Virus record (IMG/VR): IMGVR_UViG_3300050014_000046
Span: 1-24,144 of that record
Source of the DNA: a virus
DNA length: 24,144 nt
Direction: 5' to 3' (one strand)
Within the stretch, counting starts at the first letter, position 1; each line of letters opens with the position of its first letter. Both the position numbers and the translations under genes were made by a program. Positions 16,912 through 24,007 of this stretch are shown here, piece after piece. Under the pieces are notes generated by a model, which was not told where the DNA came from, ran no database searches, and worked only from the letters and a program-made list of their open reading frames with translations.

Positions 16912-18372
16912 ATGAGCTTTGGAACTGTTATTTTTACGAATAGAGGTCGGGCATTACAGGTAAAAGCACAGATCGGGACCGCACTTATCTTTACTCGGAT
17001 CGGCGTTGGTGATGGAGCCTTGGGCGGCCAGGCAATTGAAGATTTAAATGCCTTAGTCCATGAAGTAAAGTCGTTGACCTTAAATAAATTTAAGACACTG
17101 ACCGGGGGCAAGGCGGTCGTTGGTGGCGTGTTGTCAAATCAAGCAATTGTGACCGGCTTCTATTGGCGTGAACTCGGGTTATTCGCCACTGATCCAGATC
17201 TGGGCGAAATACTTTACTGTTATGGTAATGCTGGAGCTCTTGCCGAGTATATACCGGCTCCTGGTGGAGCTGAAATACTGGAAAAGCAAGTGGATGTTGT
17301 TACGCTGGTTGGCAATGCATCGAGTGTTAGTGCGACTATAGACCAATCTCTGGTTTATGAAACTCCAGCTGGTGCTCAGGCTAAGGCTGATGCAGCTATA
17401 CCCAAAAGTTTGGCAACCGCAGTGAGTCAATTTTTGGTATCTTCAGCGGTGGGTGTTTGGGCAATAAAAACGATAGCAGAAGTAAAAACTTTGCTTGGAT
17501 TGGGAAGTGCAGCATATACAGCCAGCACAGCTTACGCAACTGCAGCGCAAGGAACTAAGGCAGATGCAGCGTTACAGAACGCTGCCGCCTTTGCCACTGC
17601 GGCACAAGGAACACTTGCGACTAATGCTGCTCCTGCAAGTGATCTTGCTGCGCATAAGGCTGATTATGCGTCTAAATTCTACGACAATGCAGGCGCACAT
17701 AATGGTATTTATAGGGGCAAATATTTAGGCAGTACACCAACAACAGAACAGTATAACGCTATAAGTAGTGGAATATTTACAGATTTATACATTGGCGATT
17801 ATTGGACTATTGGTGGTATAAATTATCGCATAGCGGGGTTTAATTACTTTTATAATGTTGGTGATACCGCCTTAACATTTAACCATGCCATTGTAGTACC
17901 AGACACTCAACTATATCTTGCTACAATGAATGCAACAAATATCACTGATGGCGGATATGTTGGGTCAGTAATGCGAACAGCAAATCTCGCAGCTGCAATA
18001 ACAACGATTAAATCAGCGTTTAGTGGTCACGTGGTTAATCACAGACAACTTTTGACAAACGCAGGAACCTCTGGTAAGGCTAGTGGTTTTGCTTGGTATG
18101 GTTGCGAAGTTGAATTAATGAATGAAGTTATGGTTTATGGTTCAGTAGCTTGGGGCGAAGCTACATACAATAGTGGTTTTAATGTAGGCTCAAGTAATGG
18201 ACAATTGCCATTATTTTTATTGAGGCACGATTTAATTCATAATAGACAGGATTGGTGGTTAAGAGATATAGTATCCGCCACGTACTTCGCTGGTGTGACC
18301 GGCAGCGGCTATGCGGACCGTTACTCCGCATCTAGCTCTATTGGCGTTCGTCCCGCTTTCACCATATCTTAA
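16912..18372 (+). CDS. Tail-collar fibre protein, DGR target with C-type-lectin-like variable tip
   Basis: A 486-aa receptor-binding fibre. Residues 1-about 150 form the DUF3751-like tail-collar attachment domain (VIFTNRGRALQVKAQIG, then FTRIGVGDGAL and GFYWRELGLFATDPDLGEIL). Residues about 150-260 are a low-complexity Ala/Thr shaft with repeated ATAAQGT units. Residues about 260-486 look like a C-type-lectin/formylglycine-enzyme-type ligand-binding domain, with YIGDYWTIGGINYRIAGFN and WWLRDIVSATYFAG. The last 30 codons before the final TISstop are the DGR variable repeat (residues 454-483). The codon use of the distal half is more AT-rich than the head genes. It follows the gpI gene by 2 nt. 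This is the adhesin that the DGR diversifies. Confidence 0.93.
   Translation: MSFGTVIFTNRGRALQVKAQIGTALIFTRIGVGDGALGGQAIEDLNALVHEVKSLTLNKFKTLTGGKAVVGGVLSNQAIVTGFYWRELGLFATDPDLGEILYCYGNAGALAEYIPAPGGAEILEKQVDVVTLVGNASSVSATIDQSLVYETPAGAQAKADAAIPKSLATAVSQFLVSSAVGVWAIKTIAEVKTLLGLGSAAYTASTAYATAAQGTKADAALQNAAAFATAAQGTLATNAAPASDLAAHKADYASKFYDNAGAHNGIYRGKYLGSTPTTEQYNAISSGIFTDLYIGDYWTIGGINYRIAGFNYFYNVGDTALTFNHAIVVPDTQLYLATMNATNITDGGYVGSVMRTANLAAAITTIKSAFSGHVVNHRQLLTNAGTSGKASGFAWYGCEVELMNEVMVYGSVAWGEATYNSGFNVGSSNGQLPLFLLRHDLIHNRQDWWLRDIVSATYFAGVTGSGYADRYSASSSIGVRPAFTIS
18271..18360 (+). repeat. DGR variable repeat (VR)
   Basis: The 90-bp region pairs without gaps with the TR at 18939-19028. It differs at 17 positions, all where TR has A (17 of 28 adenines, none of 62 other bases). 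In frame, all 12 Asn codons of TR and one Asp are replaced: N to Y, G, T, G, S, Y, D, R, Y, S, S, I in order, and D to A. The frame is the fibre gene. The invariant parts (VSAT at the start and GVRP near the end) fit a lectin-fold scaffold with exposed variable positions. Homology ends exactly at 18360, where VR and TR diverge at non-A bases. Confidence 0.98.
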
Positions 18373-18374
18373 AT

Positions 18375-18395
18375 CCGCACCCCTTGTGGGTGCGG
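18375..18395 (+). promoter_or_regulatory. Hairpin downstream of VR (DGR homing cis element)
   Basis: ccgcaccc / gggtgcgg form a perfect 8-bp stem with a 5-nt loop (cttgt), 14 nt past the end of VR and just after the fibre stop. DGR targets carry such a hairpin/cruciform after VR (8-bp stem in phage BPP-1) to promote homing. No copy follows TR. A terminator is unlikely because no T tract follows; the next bases are the ribosome binding site of the accessory gene. Confidence 0.85.
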
Positions 18396-18410
18396 TAGGA
18401 GGAAATATTA

Positions 18411-19046
18411 ATGTCGGTGTTAAAAAGAAAAAGGAAAGAATCGCAGTTTGAAGTATTCCATCATTTTTACAAAGTAAGAAAAGATATGACTGATTTGCTG
18501 TTACGAGACTTTGGGTATAGTACCAAAAAGTCTGAACAATGCCTAGAAAAGATATTTGGTGGACGTTCTTATGATGAATTAAAGGATAGTGAAAAACAAC
18601 ACTACAATACTAGAAAAAATAAAACTGAAGCATTTGAAGAATGGTTCATAATAGACCAAAGACAAGTTGTAATGGATTGTCTAAGAAGTATTCAAGAAAA
18701 CGTATTTATCGCAAATAGCATATATCCGTTATACCTAGAGGAACTTGTTGAGAGACGAATACATCAAGATAGGGCAATCGGACAATGCTATAGACTTTTA
18801 CAAGAACTTCAATATGCGATAGAAACTTTGCCTGTTGACATTAATGTTTATCTCCGATTTGCAGAAGGAATAGAAAAAGAAATAAATCTTATAAAAGGTT
18901 GGAGAAAATCAGACAATAAATTTAAAGGGGCATTCTCTGTATCCGCCACGAACTTCGCTAATGTGAACAACAACGGCAATGCGAACAATAACAACGCATC
19001 TAACTCTAATGGCGTTCGTCCCGATTTCGATACTGCAATTAAATAG
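18411..19046 (+). CDS. DGR accessory protein containing the template repeat
   Basis: A 211-aa protein. Residues 1-176 are helical and charged, with MSVLKRKRKESQFEVFHHFY at the N terminus and QCYRLLQELQYAIETLPVDI followed by LIKGWRKSDNK near 130-170. This resembles the non-BPP-type accessory (four-helix, Avd-equivalent) proteins of Firmicutes DGRs. Such proteins bind the RT and RNA in other DGRs. Residues 177-206 are encoded by the TR itself, giving an Asn-rich tail (NNNGNANNNNASNSN). The start follows AGGAGG (18397-18402), right after the hairpin. It is not a typical 120-aa Avd, so the family call comes from pattern and context. The region is AT-rich relative to the structural genes. Confidence 0.82.
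   Translation: MSVLKRKRKESQFEVFHHFYKVRKDMTDLLLRDFGYSTKKSEQCLEKIFGGRSYDELKDSEKQHYNTRKNKTEAFEEWFIIDQRQVVMDCLRSIQENVFIANSIYPLYLEELVERRIHQDRAIGQCYRLLQELQYAIETLPVDINVYLRFAEGIEKEINLIKGWRKSDNKFKGAFSVSATNFANVNNNGNANNNNASNSNGVRPDFDTAIK
18939..19028 (+). repeat. DGR template repeat (TR)
   Basis: The 90-bp donor of the VR, in the same orientation 668 bp downstream. It has 28 adenines, 24 of them in 12 AAC/AAT codons, the usual design that avoids stops when A is mutated to any base. It is in frame inside the accessory gene and ends 18 nt before that gene's last codon base. The 3' flank (gatactgcaa) differs from that of VR (accatatctt), as expected for the TR/VR boundary. Confidence 0.98.
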
Positions 19047-19072
19047 GCATTTGACCGTTTTGCAGAAAAGAA

Positions 19073-19091
19073 AGGAGAGGGTGTCCTTCCT
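19073..19091 (+). promoter_or_regulatory. Hairpin covering the ribosome binding site of the RT gene
   Basis: aggagagg (19073-19080) can pair with ccttcct (19085-19091) through a gtgt loop with one bulged G, giving 7 base pairs. The pairing hides the only Shine-Dalgarno in front of the RT and suggests low or conditional translation. The pairing is visible; the effect is inferred. Confidence 0.5.
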
Positions 19092-19092
19092 C

Positions 19093-20280
19093 ATGGTAAA
19101 TACTAAACACGACACTGCTTCTTACGAGAACTGTAGTTATAAGCGTGAAATATTTAATTCTAACAATTTATATGATTCATTTATTAAAGCAAAGCGTGGT
19201 AGTGATTGGAAGCCACAGGTACAAAAATACGAGATGAGTTTTTTAAGTGAATTGGCAAAATTACAAAAAGAACTCGAAGAAAAAACATTTAAACTTCTTC
19301 CATCTTCTGAGTTTATATTAAACGAAAGGGGTAAAACAAGATTAATATCTGGTGAGCAAATCCACGATAGAATAGCAAAAGGGTGTTTAAGTGATGGAGA
19401 GTTACTCCCTTCTATTAGAAAGTATTTAGCATATGATAATGGAGCAAGTTTAAAAGGAAAAGGTATAGATTTTACACGTAAAAGATTTGATGTACATTTA
19501 AGAAAATACTATCAACAAAATCAAAGTAATGACGGCTATATTTTATTAATTGATTTTACTAAGTATTTTGATAATATTCGGCACGAAGACTTTATTAACA
19601 TTTTTAAAAAGATTGGTATTGATAAAAATGCGTTATGGTTACTTAAAAAAACTGTTGAGAAATCAAGGGTTGACGTGTCTTATATGACCGATAATGAATA
19701 TTTAGTATGCATGGATACAGTATTTAACTCACTTGAGTACCAACAAATAAATAAAAATACACTTATGGGTGAAAAGTTTATGGGCAAGCATTTAAATATA
19801 GGCGACCAAGTTGCTCAAGTAGCTGGAATTACTTATCCCATGTCAATAGATAACTATATAAAAATAGTTAAAGGTGTTAAATTTTATGGAAGGTACATGG
19901 ATGATAGTTATATAATTCATAATGATAGAGAATATTTAAAAGAATTACTAAGCGAAATAATTGACGTCGCTAAAGATATTGGAATCACTATAAATGCAAA
20001 CAAAACTCACATTTACAAACTGTCTAGTTATTGGAAATATTTACAAATTCAATATTCTCTTACTGATACTGGCAGAATAATTAAAAAAATAAATCCAAAA
20101 AGGCTTACAACTATGCGTAGGAAACTAAAGAAGTTGGCATCAGTTTTACCTAAAAAAGACTTTGAAAATTTATATAATTCATGGTTTAACAATCATTATA
20201 AAATTATGAGTAAACAACAAAGACAAAATATAAACAACTTATATGATAAGTTAAAGGAGGAATATTATGTACAAGATTAA
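19093..20280 (+). CDS. DGR reverse transcriptase
   Basis: A 395-aa RT. The palm has a catalytic Asp in ILLIDFTKYFD (D154) and a YMDD box in FYGRYMDDSYIIH (D270, D271). The motif-4 box reads IGDQVAQ (G237-Q242), where DGR RTs typically have GxxxSQ; the Ser is Ala here. Downstream motifs are GITINANKTHI and WKYLQIQYSL. Length and lack of extra domains (no maturase or endonuclease) fit DGR RTs rather than group II introns. The reading frame is open further upstream from 18979, but that part overlaps the TR gene in another frame. ATG 19093 is chosen; GTG 19081 is an alternative. Strongly AT-rich. Confidence 0.93.
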   Translation: MVNTKHDTASYENCSYKREIFNSNNLYDSFIKAKRGSDWKPQVQKYEMSFLSELAKLQKELEEKTFKLLPSSEFILNERGKTRLISGEQIHDRIAKGCLSDGELLPSIRKYLAYDNGASLKGKGIDFTRKRFDVHLRKYYQQNQSNDGYILLIDFTKYFDNIRHEDFINIFKKIGIDKNALWLLKKTVEKSRVDVSYMTDNEYLVCMDTVFNSLEYQQINKNTLMGEKFMGKHLNIGDQVAQVAGITYPMSIDNYIKIVKGVKFYGRYMDDSYIIHNDREYLKELLSEIIDVAKDIGITINANKTHIYKLSSYWKYLQIQYSLTDTGRIIKKINPKRLTTMRRKLKKLASVLPKKDFENLYNSWFNNHYKIMSKQQRQNINNLYDKLKEEYYVQD

Positions 20281-20575
20281 ATTATCAAATGGTACTGAAT
20301 TAAGCAACCTTGAATTAAATGGAAATAATTATATTTCAAAAGTAATTATAGAAGATTCTATTTTTGAAAATAATTTAACTGTCGTTACCATTTATGACAC
20401 TGATGCTGAAACTGAAACTAATTGTCTAGACATGAAATTAGTGCAAAACATAATTGTAGATGGGAGTTCATGGTTTATTTTAACTAAAAAGACATTAGAA
20501 GAAAAAAGAACTGAATCAGTTGATAAAGATATTGATGATATTATAGATATTATGGCCACAATGTTGGGGGTGTAA
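20267..20575 (+). CDS. Hypothetical phage protein downstream of RT
   Basis: A 102-aa protein, beta-rich at the start (YKIKLSNGTELSNLELNGNN) and acidic-helical at the end (SVDKDIDDIIDIMATMLG). AAAGGAGG (20253-20260) lies 7 nt before the start, and the first 14 nt overlap the end of the RT gene. Similar small proteins are common after tail fibre genes in Firmicutes phages. Tail-tip or fibre chaperone roles are possible but unproven. Same AT-rich composition as the DGR. Confidence 0.6.
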   Translation: MYKIKLSNGTELSNLELNGNNYISKVIIEDSIFENNLTVVTIYDTDAETETNCLDMKLVQNIIVDGSSWFILTKKTLEEKRTESVDKDIDDIIDIMATMLGV

Positions 20576-21011: not shown

Positions 21012-21015
21012 AGTA

Positions 21016-21040
21016 AACGCCCAAGAGGGGCGTTATTTTT
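21016..21040 (+). terminator. Rho-independent terminator
   Basis: aacgccc / gggcgtt form a 7-bp stem with loop aagag, followed by attttt. It ends transcription of the fibre/DGR/small-gene block ahead of the 21074 gene, or works as an antitermination-controlled pause in the late operon. Confidence 0.8.
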
Positions 21041-21073
21041 ATGGCAAGGTAAAAAGGAAATGGAGGAATCTTT

Positions 21074-21433
21074 ATGAGCCTAACTACAGACCCCCAACAT
21101 CCTGGTTTAAAACGGGGAGTTGATGAAAGCCCACGCGAACAAAATAAGGCTTATTTAGTTTTGTCAGATGAGGAACGGGCAAAAGGCTTTGTGAAACCTT
21201 ACCGTGAATCTTATAAGCATTTAGAATGCGGCGCCACAACCAGTATGAATAGGGTAATAGCTGAGACATATGCACGGGACCCCTATTTCTACGGTGCAAC
21301 ATACTGCGTCCATTGTCAGAAGCATAGACCGCTTTCGGAGTACGTCTGGGAGCCGGATGGCGAAACTATGGACCCACACAAGTGGCCAGAGGAGGAGCAT
21401 CAGCGCATCGCTACATTGAGGGCGAAGGACTAA
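21074..21433 (+). CDS. Hypothetical phage protein with a CxxC zinc-like motif
   Basis: A 119-aa cytoplasmic protein. It has a lone C52 and a CVHC pair (C78, C81) followed by a KHRP loop, which could bind zinc. The N-terminal part is hydrophilic (DPQHPGLKRGVDESPREQNK). TGGAGG (21061-21066) precedes the ATG. It stands alone behind a terminator and is bracketed by an 18-bp repeat, so it looks like a moron inserted into the late region. No function is recognised. Confidence 0.7.
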   Translation: MSLTTDPQHPGLKRGVDESPREQNKAYLVLSDEERAKGFVKPYRESYKHLECGATTSMNRVIAETYARDPYFYGATYCVHCQKHRPLSEYVWEPDGETMDPHKWPEEEHQRIATLRAKD

Positions 21434-21445
21434 TTATGCGCAGCA
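21428..21445 (+). repeat. 18-bp direct repeat, copy 2
   Basis: The second exact copy of gactaattatgcgcagca. It includes the stop codon of the 21074 gene (gac taa). Distance between copies is 434 bp. Confidence 0.9.
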
Positions 21446-21521
21446 GGGTTATATCATCTTTTGAAATAGCATAATAGATAAAATGAAAGTGTTCTTGAAT
21501 GGCGGTGGTAGGATGAATTTC

Positions 21522-21845
21522 ATGGATTTACCAGTGAGCGGGGAAATATCAGCATATTCGTATATGGTGGAACGCGGGAAACCTGCGGCAATGTTACCTG
21601 TTCATGAGCGTGATGCTGAGAATGCTATAAGATTTATTAAAGAAACCTTCGGCCTAAATACCTATTTGGAAGATCTGGCAGAAGGTTGGAAAACTCTCTG
21701 GATTTATAAATATGAGCACGTTTTAAGCATAATTAGGATATTGCCACAGGCTCCGGAAACCATTTTAGATCATTGGATTTTAGGAAAACTATTTGGGTAT
21801 GAAGAAGCAGCTATACATGACTTCATATCCTCTAAATCTTCCTAA
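21522..21845 (+). CDS. Hypothetical phage protein
   Basis: A 107-aa protein from ATG 21522. Frame-open ATGs at 21483 and 21513 lack a ribosome site, whereas GGTAGG (21507-21512) sits 9 nt before 21522. It contains a helical C-terminal half (ETILDHWILGKLFGYEEAAI) and a central LEDLAEGWKTLWIYKYEHVL segment. No domain is recognised. It converges with the minus-strand zinc-ribbon gene and overlaps it by 14 nt. Confidence 0.7.
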   Translation: MDLPVSGEISAYSYMVERGKPAAMLPVHERDAENAIRFIKETFGLNTYLEDLAEGWKTLWIYKYEHVLSIIRILPQAPETILDHWILGKLFGYEEAAIHDFISSKSS

Positions 21846-21969
21846 AATCGGTTTTACTACAGTTGGGGCAAGGTGGAAGTGTATCAGTGCTATCATCTAG
21901 TCTTACAATTTGGCCGCAATTAGTGCATTGATAGCTTCCTTTCCCGGGCTTTTCTCCAGTAGTTGGCAT
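21832..21969 (-). CDS. Small zinc-ribbon protein (hidden minus-strand gene)
   Basis: A 45-aa protein (MPTTGEKPGKGSYQCTNCGQ at the start, PPCPNCSKTDFRKI at the end). It has two CxxC knuckles (C15/C18 and C34/C37), the layout of short zinc-ribbon proteins with a GEKPGKG lead-in. A perfect AAAGGAGGTGA lies 6-7 nt upstream on the minus strand. It is the only clear minus-strand gene between head and lysis genes, so it should have its own promoter and is probably a moron expressed in the lysogen. A DNA or RNA contact role is a guess. Confidence 0.85.
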   Translation of the reverse strand: MPTTGEKPGKGSYQCTNCGQIVRLDDSTDTLPPCPNCSKTDFRKI

Positions 21970-22050
21970 ATATTGTCACCTCCTTTCAATTAGTTAATAG
22001 GCTTACAAAGTGTAGACTTCGACAGCAGACAGGAAAAACCTGTAAAACAA

Positions 22051-22081
22051 ATGACAAATTCTAACAGGCCGCTCTTATAAA
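22051..22081 (+). promoter_or_regulatory. Weak candidate promoter before the lysis genes
   Basis: atgaca (22051-22056) and tataaa (22076-22081) are spaced 19 bp apart in an otherwise gene-free stretch (21970-22160). The -35 is imperfect and the spacing long. The stretch also has a small inverted repeat acagg/cctgt (22029-22043). Confidence 0.25.
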
Positions 22082-22119
22082 TTACCAAGCGATTGGGATT
22101 TTGAGAGCGGGTACACGGG

Positions 22120-22143
22120 CCGCCAGAGTAGGCGGTATTTTTT
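22120..22143 (+). terminator. Terminator-like hairpin before the lysis genes
   Basis: ccgcc / ggcgg (5-bp stem, loop agagta) followed by tatttttt. It lies between the moron region and the lysis cassette, so late antitermination or a promoter must act across or below it. Confidence 0.65.
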
Positions 22144-22160
22144 ATGGGGAGGTGGTTATA

Positions 22161-22520
22161 TTGAATGAAACCCAGGAAGAAATAACTGCCAAAATTGTAG
22201 CGCAAGCGGCTACAGCTACAGCACTAGCGGTATCACAGGCAGCGCAGGCGGCGGCAATGGTGATCGCCAAAGAGAATAACACGGCTTTAACTGCAATCGC
22301 TGTGCTGCAGACGGAAATGACTGTCCTTAAAAACCAACAGACATCCTTTGAACTGGAAATTAACCGCAAAATGGACAACTTGAGCCCTAAATTTGACAAA
22401 ATATTTAACAAGCTCGATGAAGTAACGCAAGGCAGGCCAACCTGGGCAGTAGCTGGCATAATGGGTGCTTTGTTTAGTTTGTGCGTGGGATTAATTGTTT
22501 TTGTTATGTCAAGTATGTAA
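22161..22520 (+). CDS. XhlA-like phage membrane protein
   Basis: A 119-aa protein from TTG 22161, with GGGAGGTGG at 22147-22155. Residues 1-85 are a long Ala-rich then charged coiled coil (TALAVSQAAQAAAMVIAKEN, then INRKMDNLSPKFDKIFNKLD). A single TM segment (WAVAGIMGALFSLCVGLIVF) is followed by a short tail. This is the XhlA/haemolysin-type layout found next to amidase and holin in Bacillus-type prophages. The frame is open upstream to 22101, but that part lies inside the hairpin. Confidence 0.78.
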   Translation: MNETQEEITAKIVAQAATATALAVSQAAQAAAMVIAKENNTALTAIAVLQTEMTVLKNQQTSFELEINRKMDNLSPKFDKIFNKLDEVTQGRPTWAVAGIMGALFSLCVGLIVFVMSSM

Positions 22521-22533
22521 AGGGGTGTAGGCA

Positions 22534-22860
22534 GTGAAAAGCTTTTTTAATTCTCCTTACAATTTCAGTTTCAAGGATCTGATAGCAGCGGTGTTCATCG
22601 GGTCCTTTCTTTATTTCTGTTGGAAGGCCTCAGACAACAGCCAGGCACTGGAATTGGTGCAATCTCTCGTTTCACTTGTCGGCATCATCCTGGGCGGATA
22701 CTTTGTACAGGAGGGCGCGGCAATGTACTTTCAGCGGAGCCAAAACACCGACACTACTCAACGTCAGCAGTATTCTAGTACAAAAGTGACTTCGACCATA
22801 AACACTTCCCCCACTCCGGATCCGGCGCAGGCAGAGCAAGGGGAAGCAGGACCGCTATGA
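22534..22860 (+). CDS. Two-TM small phage membrane protein
   Basis: A 108-aa protein with GTG start 22534. It has two predicted TM segments (DLIAAVFIGSFLYFCW and LVQSLVSLVGIILGGYFV) and a hydrophilic tail rich in Thr/Ser/Gln. The position between an XhlA-like gene and the amidase suggests a lysis accessory or holin-like role. No decisive motif is present. It overlaps the next open frame by 4 nt. Confidence 0.62.
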   Translation: MKSFFNSPYNFSFKDLIAAVFIGSFLYFCWKASDNSQALELVQSLVSLVGIILGGYFVQEGAAMYFQRSQNTDTTQRQQYSSTKVTSTINTSPTPDPAQAEQGEAGPL

Positions 22861-22874
22861 GAAAGGAGAAATTT

Positions 22875-23573
22875 ATGCAAATACAACAAGCTCTGAGCCC
22901 CAACTTTACAAAGGGCAGGCGAGGAAAGAAAACCATCGCCATTGTGGATCATATCACGGCCGGTTTATATCCGGGTACTTTATCCTGGATGCGTAACCCG
23001 GAAGCTAAAGCCAGCGCCAACTATCTCGTGACCCGCACCGGCTTAATATTGCAGATGGTAAGCGATGAAGATACGTCCTGGGCAAGCGGATTGGTGGTAC
23101 ATCCTAACTGGCCCTTATATGATGGCACGAATCCCAATTACTACGTAATCAACATCGAGCACGAGGGCTTCCAGGACCAGGGAGGGGAAGGTAACTTAAC
23201 AGAGTTGCAATACCAGGCATCGTTGTGGCTGCATAAGTATCTGATCGATAAACATAGCTTGCCGATCACTGTCGACACAATCATAGGCCACTATCGCATT
23301 GACAGCGTAAATCGCCCAAATTGTCCGGGGCCAATGTTCCCATGGAAAAAGTTGTTTGCAGACCTACAATCGAAAGGAGTTGTTGAGGACATGAAGTTAG
23401 GAATCGAGATCCCAGAAGTGCTGGTAGATCTTGAAGGTGGAGTTGTTGATAACTCAGTGATTCTCAATGTTGATGGCAAGGATACGACGTACATTCCTGC
23501 CATCGCACTGAGAGCCGTTGGGATGACGGTTGCGTGGGATGCACCTACAAAGACTGTCAAGATTACAAAATAG
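22875..23573 (+). CDS. Endolysin: N-acetylmuramoyl-L-alanine amidase with a CuAO-N-like C-terminal module
   Basis: A 232-aa peptidoglycan amidase of the amidase_2/T7-lysozyme type, cutting the lactyl-L-Ala bond. Likely zinc ligands are H26 (IVDHITAG), H139 (IGHYRID) and C150 (NCPGP). Other family parts are ASANYLVTRTGLILQMV and YYVINIEHEGF. Residues about 195-232 (VDGKDTTYIPAIALRAVGMT, then VAWDAPTKTVKITK) look like a copper-amine-oxidase-N-type binding module, probably for the cell envelope. A start at 22857 overlaps the previous stop, but AAAGGAG (22862-22868) favours ATG 22875. It is the late lysis gene, followed by a holin candidate. Confidence 0.93.
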   Translation: MQIQQALSPNFTKGRRGKKTIAIVDHITAGLYPGTLSWMRNPEAKASANYLVTRTGLILQMVSDEDTSWASGLVVHPNWPLYDGTNPNYYVINIEHEGFQDQGGEGNLTELQYQASLWLHKYLIDKHSLPITVDTIIGHYRIDSVNRPNCPGPMFPWKKLFADLQSKGVVEDMKLGIEIPEVLVDLEGGVVDNSVILNVDGKDTTYIPAIALRAVGMTVAWDAPTKTVKITK

Positions 23574-23590
23574 ATAGGGAGGTAAACAAA

Positions 23591-24007
23591 GTGAGTACAG
23601 CAATATTTACAGTGTTAGGTTCAATCATTGCTCTGGTATTGGCAGACGCCCTATTTGGTATCATTCTGAGCATCAAGGCGGGCAAATTCGATGTGCGGAA
23701 ACTACCTCAGTTCCTGGCCACAAATCTACTGCCGTACGCAGGAGGCCTGCTGGTATTGGCGCTGACATCGCTCTTTGCCGGGGATTATAGTACGCAGGTA
23801 ATCGCTATATTTGGGGCCGCTGCCCTCGTAACTGGAGCTAAGTTCGTTGCGGAAATAATAGATAAGGCTACGCAGATATTTGGAAAACTCGAAATACCCA
23901 GTCAGACGATAGACATAAAGGCATATTTAGCATCGTTAGATGATGAAATAATCAAAACTCTTGGAGAGGCAATCGTTGATGCAATACAGAAAAAAACGAC
24001 CGGGTAG
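23591..24007 (+). CDS. Putative phage holin
   Basis: A 138-aa membrane protein starting at GTG 23591, 7 nt after AGGGAGG (23577-23583). Two or three TM segments (ILGSIIALVLADALFGIILS-like opening, LLPYAGGLLVLALTSLFAGD, then VIAIFGAAALVTGAKFVAEI) are followed by a charged helical C-terminal tail (FGKLEIPSQTIDIKAYL). Size and topology suit a holin controlling endolysin release. It ends the plus-strand block; open frame upstream to 23534 overlaps the amidase in a different frame and is not used. Confidence 0.78.
   Translation: MSTAIFTVLGSIIALVLADALFGIILSIKAGKFDVRKLPQFLATNLLPYAGGLLVLALTSLFAGDYSTQVIAIFGAAALVTGAKFVAEIIDKATQIFGKLEIPSQTIDIKAYLASLDDEIIKTLGEAIVDAIQKKTTG

Follow-up and report, generated by a model that had tools for sequence, protein, structure and literature searches.

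Evidence for a complete diversity-generating retroelement targeting the tip of a phage tail fibre, in a lineage with a pentaloop target hairpin, an AQ reverse transcriptase and an RNA scaffold that enters the reverse transcriptase gene

Our analysis of IMG/VR virus record IMGVR_UViG_3300050014_000046, a single virus record of 24,144 bases (hereafter the window; features are read on the + strand), indicates with a probability of about 0.96 that it carries a complete avd-TR-RT diversity-generating retroelement (DGR) rewriting the tip of a phage tail fibre. An earlier note on this DNA had proposed such a complete DGR acting on a contractile-tail fibre, and the proposal is supported by two repeats - the variable repeat (VR) in the fibre gene and the template repeat (TR) - which differ at TR adenines only, as well as by a reverse transcriptase (RT), an Avd-like protein, a hairpin and the fibre gene itself (Table 1). 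The anatomy is plain from the map in that the fibre gene is followed on its 3' side by hairpin, Avd-like gene, TR and RT, in this order.

VR and TR are 90-bp direct repeats of 81% identity whose 17 mismatches all fall on TR adenines (17/28) and never on other TR bases (0/62; hypergeometric P = 2.3e-11), with a spectrum of eight A>G, five A>T and four A>C changes. The adenine-only difference that had been claimed thus holds, and so does the claim that each of the 12 asparagine (AAY) codons in TR is changed in VR; the accompanying arithmetic is also correct, since AAY can give rise to 15 amino acids and no stop, hence 15^12 or 1.3e14 possible tips. The count of 13 variable residues, on the other hand, has to be replaced by 16 diversified adenines in 12 codons. 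This is because the 17th mismatch (A at 19024 in TR, C at 18356 in VR, i.e. GAT to GCT) is not a diversified site but a fixed difference between the initiation of mutagenic homing sequence of VR (IMH) and its TR counterpart (IMH*): VR never has A at this site while the other TR adenines vary. Among 47 relatives that share this 3' end, in which TR reads GA(T)TT, the TR adenine pairs with C in VR in 45 and with T in two, and about 60% of the remaining TR adenines are changed. Fixed GCT (VR) and GAT (TR) are therefore an IMH/IMH* pair as looked for in a DGR. No VR beyond this known pair of repeats was found in the 24,144-base record.

That the DGR family is active is clear in its relatives, where four pairs of contigs, virtually identical elsewhere, have diversified in VR only. 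Outside VR, L019/L024, L164/L165 and L132/L134 show no difference over 10,431, 9,088 and 2,680 positions, respectively, and L111/L113 a single one over 6,572; inside VR, these pairs differ at 17, 15, 20 and 15 sites, of which 16, 13, 19 and all 15 are at TR adenines (87-100%). The earlier note had named VR changes at non-adenine sites of TR, or an unchanging VR beside a stable RT, as findings that would speak against adenine-specific homing, and with these pairs in hand that claim survives. From here, we infer that the DGR is active in this very phage, too. In the TR of one relative (L014:1182-1271) we noted four substitutions at adenines compared to its near-twin L013, some of them common to the L014 VR, so this TR may have been overwritten or self-edited, or the contig may be an assembly chimera.

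Identification of the RT is secured by RVT_1, the YMDD motif and profile comparison, in which the best solved relatives are 8ub7-8ube ('Reverse transcriptase'; E=4e-31 for 8ub7), with group II intron RTs at 1e-14. We take 8ub7 to be the bRT of phage BPP-1. The conserved start is ATG 19093 rather than ATG 18979, located further upstream inside TR. Motif 4 of the protein reads IGDQVAQ, so it has AQ rather than SQ and falls outside the DGR pattern [ILV]GxxxSQ. This does not exclude the RT from the DGR class because SQ in motif 4 was described as nearly, not strictly, exclusive (PMC3521204), and because adenine specificity is unchanged. In our tree of 90 RTs, 49 have AQ and 41 SQ, with at least four changes of state. 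Changed sites number 566 of 948 TR adenines and 13 of 2,461 other positions in AQ DGRs, against 532 of 898 and 11 of 2,582 in SQ DGRs; over the 74 DGRs whose motif 4 could be read, this amounts to roughly 60% of TR adenines and 0.5% of other sites. Since the spectrum is the same in both groups, these sequence comparisons suggest that adenine specificity does not depend on the motif-4 serine. The family's natural set of serine-to-alanine changes would thus answer, for the serine, a proposal which sees the SQ motif as the cause of adenine mutagenesis (PMC3521204).

Just 3' of the fibre stop codon lies the hairpin that the earlier note had spotted, with an 8-bp stem and a 5-nt loop. It stands out from dinucleotide shuffles (P=0.004) and is confirmed by DNA folding (z=-3.9). 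Strong hairpins occur 3' of VR in 77% of 64 distinct DGRs, compared to 3% for the position 3' of TR and 4% for shuffles, and their loops most often read CTTGT (31) or CTCGT (9). All eight stem pairs show double changes among 32 sequences, and covariation (0.823) is far above that of shuffled (0.185) or slid (at most 0.2) alignments. The published class of phage DGR hairpins has a GRNA tetraloop (PMC3240598), to which CTTGT does not belong. The pentaloop is nonetheless a trait of the family, not an artefact, because, run on BPP-1 and Dulem virus 34, the same pipeline returns GAAA, and on Taranis GGAA. Homing of BPP-1 drops to near background when the loop is CTTT or is lengthened by 2 nt (PMC3240598); the hairpin loop essential there has a second form that is equally conserved. 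In two phages of 94.6% identity (L156, L160), stem and flanks of the hairpin are equal and the loop is inverted (ACAAG versus CTTGT), as if a cruciform had flipped.

A second structure that covaries is an RNA scaffold starting at the TR 3' end. In an alignment of 31 sequences, which extends to about RT codon 20, it comprises 29 pairs in seven helices, with double changes in 16 of the 29 and a covariation of 0.428, compared with 0.160 for shuffled and at most 0.09 for slid alignments. GAAAGGAG, the presumed ribosome-binding site of the RT, takes part in helices 1 and 4, helices 5-7 are inside the RT gene and a UACG-capped hairpin is found at 19119-19130. The covariance model matches the same place beside TR in DGRs that were not part of its alignment, among them SQ lineages and Acutalibacter phage Fontainebleau; it gave no match in BPP-1 or Faecalibacterium phages, and Rfam holds no family for the scaffold. 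Being compact and overlapping the RT gene, the scaffold may define a minimal template RNA, one that could be reconstituted.

How these parts could work together is suggested by BPP-1, where a structured spacer between TR and brt recruits RT and Avd (PMC12875486, citing Handa 2025). By analogy, the TR transcript here, held by the structured RNA at its 3' end, which overlaps the start of the RT gene, would recruit RT and Avd, and the scaffold might at the same time set RT translation against templating. The RT would then copy TR, placing random bases opposite adenines, and the resulting cDNA would replace VR where the shared 3' IMH and the pentaloop cruciform mark the site. TR itself would be spared because it is without a cruciform and has IMH* (GAT) instead of IMH (GCT). 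Going further, and at odds we rate as distinctly below even, the family may constitute a lineage with a YTYGY-type pentaloop target code and co-adapted machinery, with a serine-independent AQ RT and with a TR RNA whose 3' scaffold includes the ribosome-binding site and first codons of the RT, one transcript thus serving either for RT translation or as template.

The accessory gene of the cassette can be retained as Avd-like in view of a match to phrog_3206 (Avd, E=3e-4), its helical core and an Avd-annotated relative in Roseburia phage Shimadzu. The AlphaFold2 (AF2) model has high confidence for the core and a predicted local distance difference test score (pLDDT) below 50 for residues 173-211. 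As its open frame runs on across TR in the phase of VR, the asparagine-rich tail encoded there could be a functional domain, in which case TR would also be under selection at the protein level. While some 30 relatives likewise have an Avd frame that crosses TR and stops 9-30 nt beyond it, Avd ends before TR in L004, L013-L016, L030, L163 as well as most SQ relatives, and disorder is predicted for the tail. We therefore reject a coding role, which strikes us as improbable, and regard the TR-encoded tail as dispensable, judging from ORF ends (ORF, open reading frame) and predicted disorder. In L020, the avd frame is broken roughly 160 nt 5' of TR next to TR, VR and RT that look intact; this is either a sequencing error or a loss of Avd.

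Several observations weigh against our reading of a working DGR on a lectin-like fibre. Foldseek matches of the accessory protein to S23-family proteins and to BPP-1 Avd (4dwl) are weak, as are those of the fibre C-terminus to solved C-type lectins. The folding energy of the scaffold as a single sequence is no better than that of shuffles (z=0.17), so its support comes from covariation and not from energy. Moreover, this exact phage yielded no second VR allele, as a degenerate VR pattern run over IMG/VR matched only the TR of L003. The cassette of L003, the one near-identical contig, shows two differences from ours in 2,648 bp, both outside TR, and that contig begins 6 bp 3' of VR; this break fits allelic variation, given that assemblers would be expected to break off where a site is mixed.

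In a rival scenario, the cassette was formerly active and VR is now fixed, with an idle RT. Decay does occur within the family: L047:4725-6129 has a fibre with a VR-like tip and, directly behind it, what is left of the RT (its last 90 or so residues), L050:2-930 a fibre with such a tip and a deletion that begins at the avd start and reaches into the RT end, and Lactobacillus phage JCL1032 (L203, ORF23-24) a VR-like fibre tip, with no RT match found in that phage. The JCL1032 fibre is likely a frozen DGR target; the structural protein with this tip was annotated, in this cultured phage, as possibly linked to host specificity. Here, however, intact copies of RT, Avd, TR, hairpin and scaffold are present, the RT of relatives is under purifying selection (ratio of non-synonymous to synonymous rates, dN/dS, 0.03-0.17), and the same cassette occurs in a second phage with a different lysis module, where the contig break just mentioned is as expected for a VR that varies. 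Freezing in this phage thus seems unlikely. Ordinary duplication, with VR and TR as diverged tandem gene ends and an adenine bias due to chance or to selection on asparagine codons, might be suspected because TR is open in the phase of VR and so resembles a coding duplicate. Yet chance agrees poorly with mismatches restricted to adenines (P=2e-11), the pattern recurs beside an RT in about 70 loci, and the paired contigs - otherwise identical and different in VR - already refute this explanation, to which we give practically no credence.

The target protein matches PF12571 (E=5e-7) and phrog_7037 (E=4e-49), has VR at its C-terminus and an AF2 model with pLDDT 85. DUF6273 is matched by 38 of 47 homologous fibre C-termini, the BFVD matches are phage receptor-binding and DUF6273 proteins, and a DUF6273-like domain was said to resemble C-lec (PMC10743442). 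The C-type-lectin fold that had been put forward for the tip has partial support, with good matches to DUF6273 and to predicted viral receptor-binding proteins and weak ones to solved lectins; a lectin fold is likely. Diversification may allow the phage to change its host receptor, a view we base on analogy with BPP-1.

As for the surroundings, the + strand runs from terminase, portal and capsid via tail sheath (phrog_23), late-control-type tail protein, gp25, baseplate J and tail protein I to the fibre, and sheath, baseplate J, gp25, tail protein I and Phage_tail_fib together bear out a contractile tail. No integrase was seen in the 24-kb window, and the closest genome matches are uncultured Clostridia and Lachnospiraceae bins. 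The lysis region (21014-24004) differs from that of L003 (2649-4693) though the DGR cassette is identical, so the DGR block is common to phages with exchanged lysis modules. An ORF of 102 aa behind the RT, without a match in Pfam or PHROG, belongs to a family that adjoins the RT in more than 50 relatives. It is located 3' of RT in AQ lineages, and between fibre and avd in SQ lineages and in L100/L111/L120. We set it aside as a DGR component because its family is kept beside the fibre where the DGR is gone, namely in the decayed L050 and in DGR-less JCL1032; it is probably a fibre-linked gene and possibly a fibre chaperone.

Table 1. Features of the DGR and its vicinity (positions refer to the window).
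Feature	Position	Strand	Basis or remark
Tail-fibre target gene, 486 aa	16912..18372	+	Phage_tail_fib N-terminus, DUF6273-like C-terminal domain containing VR
VR, 12 diversified codons	18271..18360	+	17 mismatches to TR, 16 at diversified sites
Fixed IMH difference, GCT in VR vs GAT in TR (19023-19025)	18355..18357	+	VR without A in 47/47 relatives
Post-VR hairpin/cruciform, stem CCGCACCC/GGGTGCGG, pentaloop CTTGT	18375..18395	+	shuffles, covariation, DNA fold
Avd-like accessory gene, 211 aa	18411..19046	+	helical core ~residues 6-172; predicted disordered TR-encoded tail
TR, 12 AAY codons, 28 A	18939..19028	+	repeat comparison
TR 3' RNA scaffold, 7 helices	19017..19147	+	TR 3' end, across RT ribosome-binding site, into RT codons 1-19
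DGR RT, 395 aa, YMDD	19093..20280	+	RVT_1 E=3e-12; motif 4 IGDQVAQ
Conserved 102-aa ORF	20267..20575	+	overlaps RT stop; probably fibre-linked, not DGR-specific

With more than 30,000 DGRs catalogued (PMC8144416), a DGR on a phage fibre is of a well-known kind, and the window represents a variant lineage within it, set apart by its loop, its AQ RT and a scaffold entering the RT gene. The departures from the described type are family-wide and comprise the pentaloop with its covarying stem, AQ in motif 4 and the covarying scaffold that reaches about 19 RT codons; in the open-access papers available, we found no earlier description of them. The BPP-1 DGR (mtd-avd-TR-brt) is alike in the order of fibre or receptor protein, avd, TR and RT, in adenine-only differences between TR and VR, in VR at the C-terminus, in a hairpin 3' of VR and in structured RNA 3' of TR. 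It differs by a GRNA tetraloop in place of the CTTGT pentaloop, by SQ instead of AQ and by its target, which is Mtd there and a DUF6273 protein here; in addition, Avd is larger here, with an N-terminal extension, and the intergenic spacer between TR and RT measures 64 nt, which takes the scaffold into the RT gene.

Faecalibacterium phage DGRs and tentaclins (PMC11792537, PMC10743442) similarly have VR in a DUF6273 domain, and their RTs are homologous, albeit only 25-29% identical and outside the reach of the scaffold model; Taranis, with GGAA 3' of VR, and Dulem virus 34, with GAAA, differ in their loops. Shimadzu (LR596903) shares with the window the order of baseplate J, tail protein I, fibre, Avd and RT and has a CTCGT pentaloop, whereas its RT is ~28% identical with SQ, its VR is longer and the scaffold model finds no match. 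Fontainebleau (ON453893), despite an RT that is 40% identical and has SQ, and despite other tail genes, is alike in its CTTGC pentaloop, in a scaffold recognised by the covariance model (E=8e-12) and in having relatives of both Avd and the post-RT ORF.

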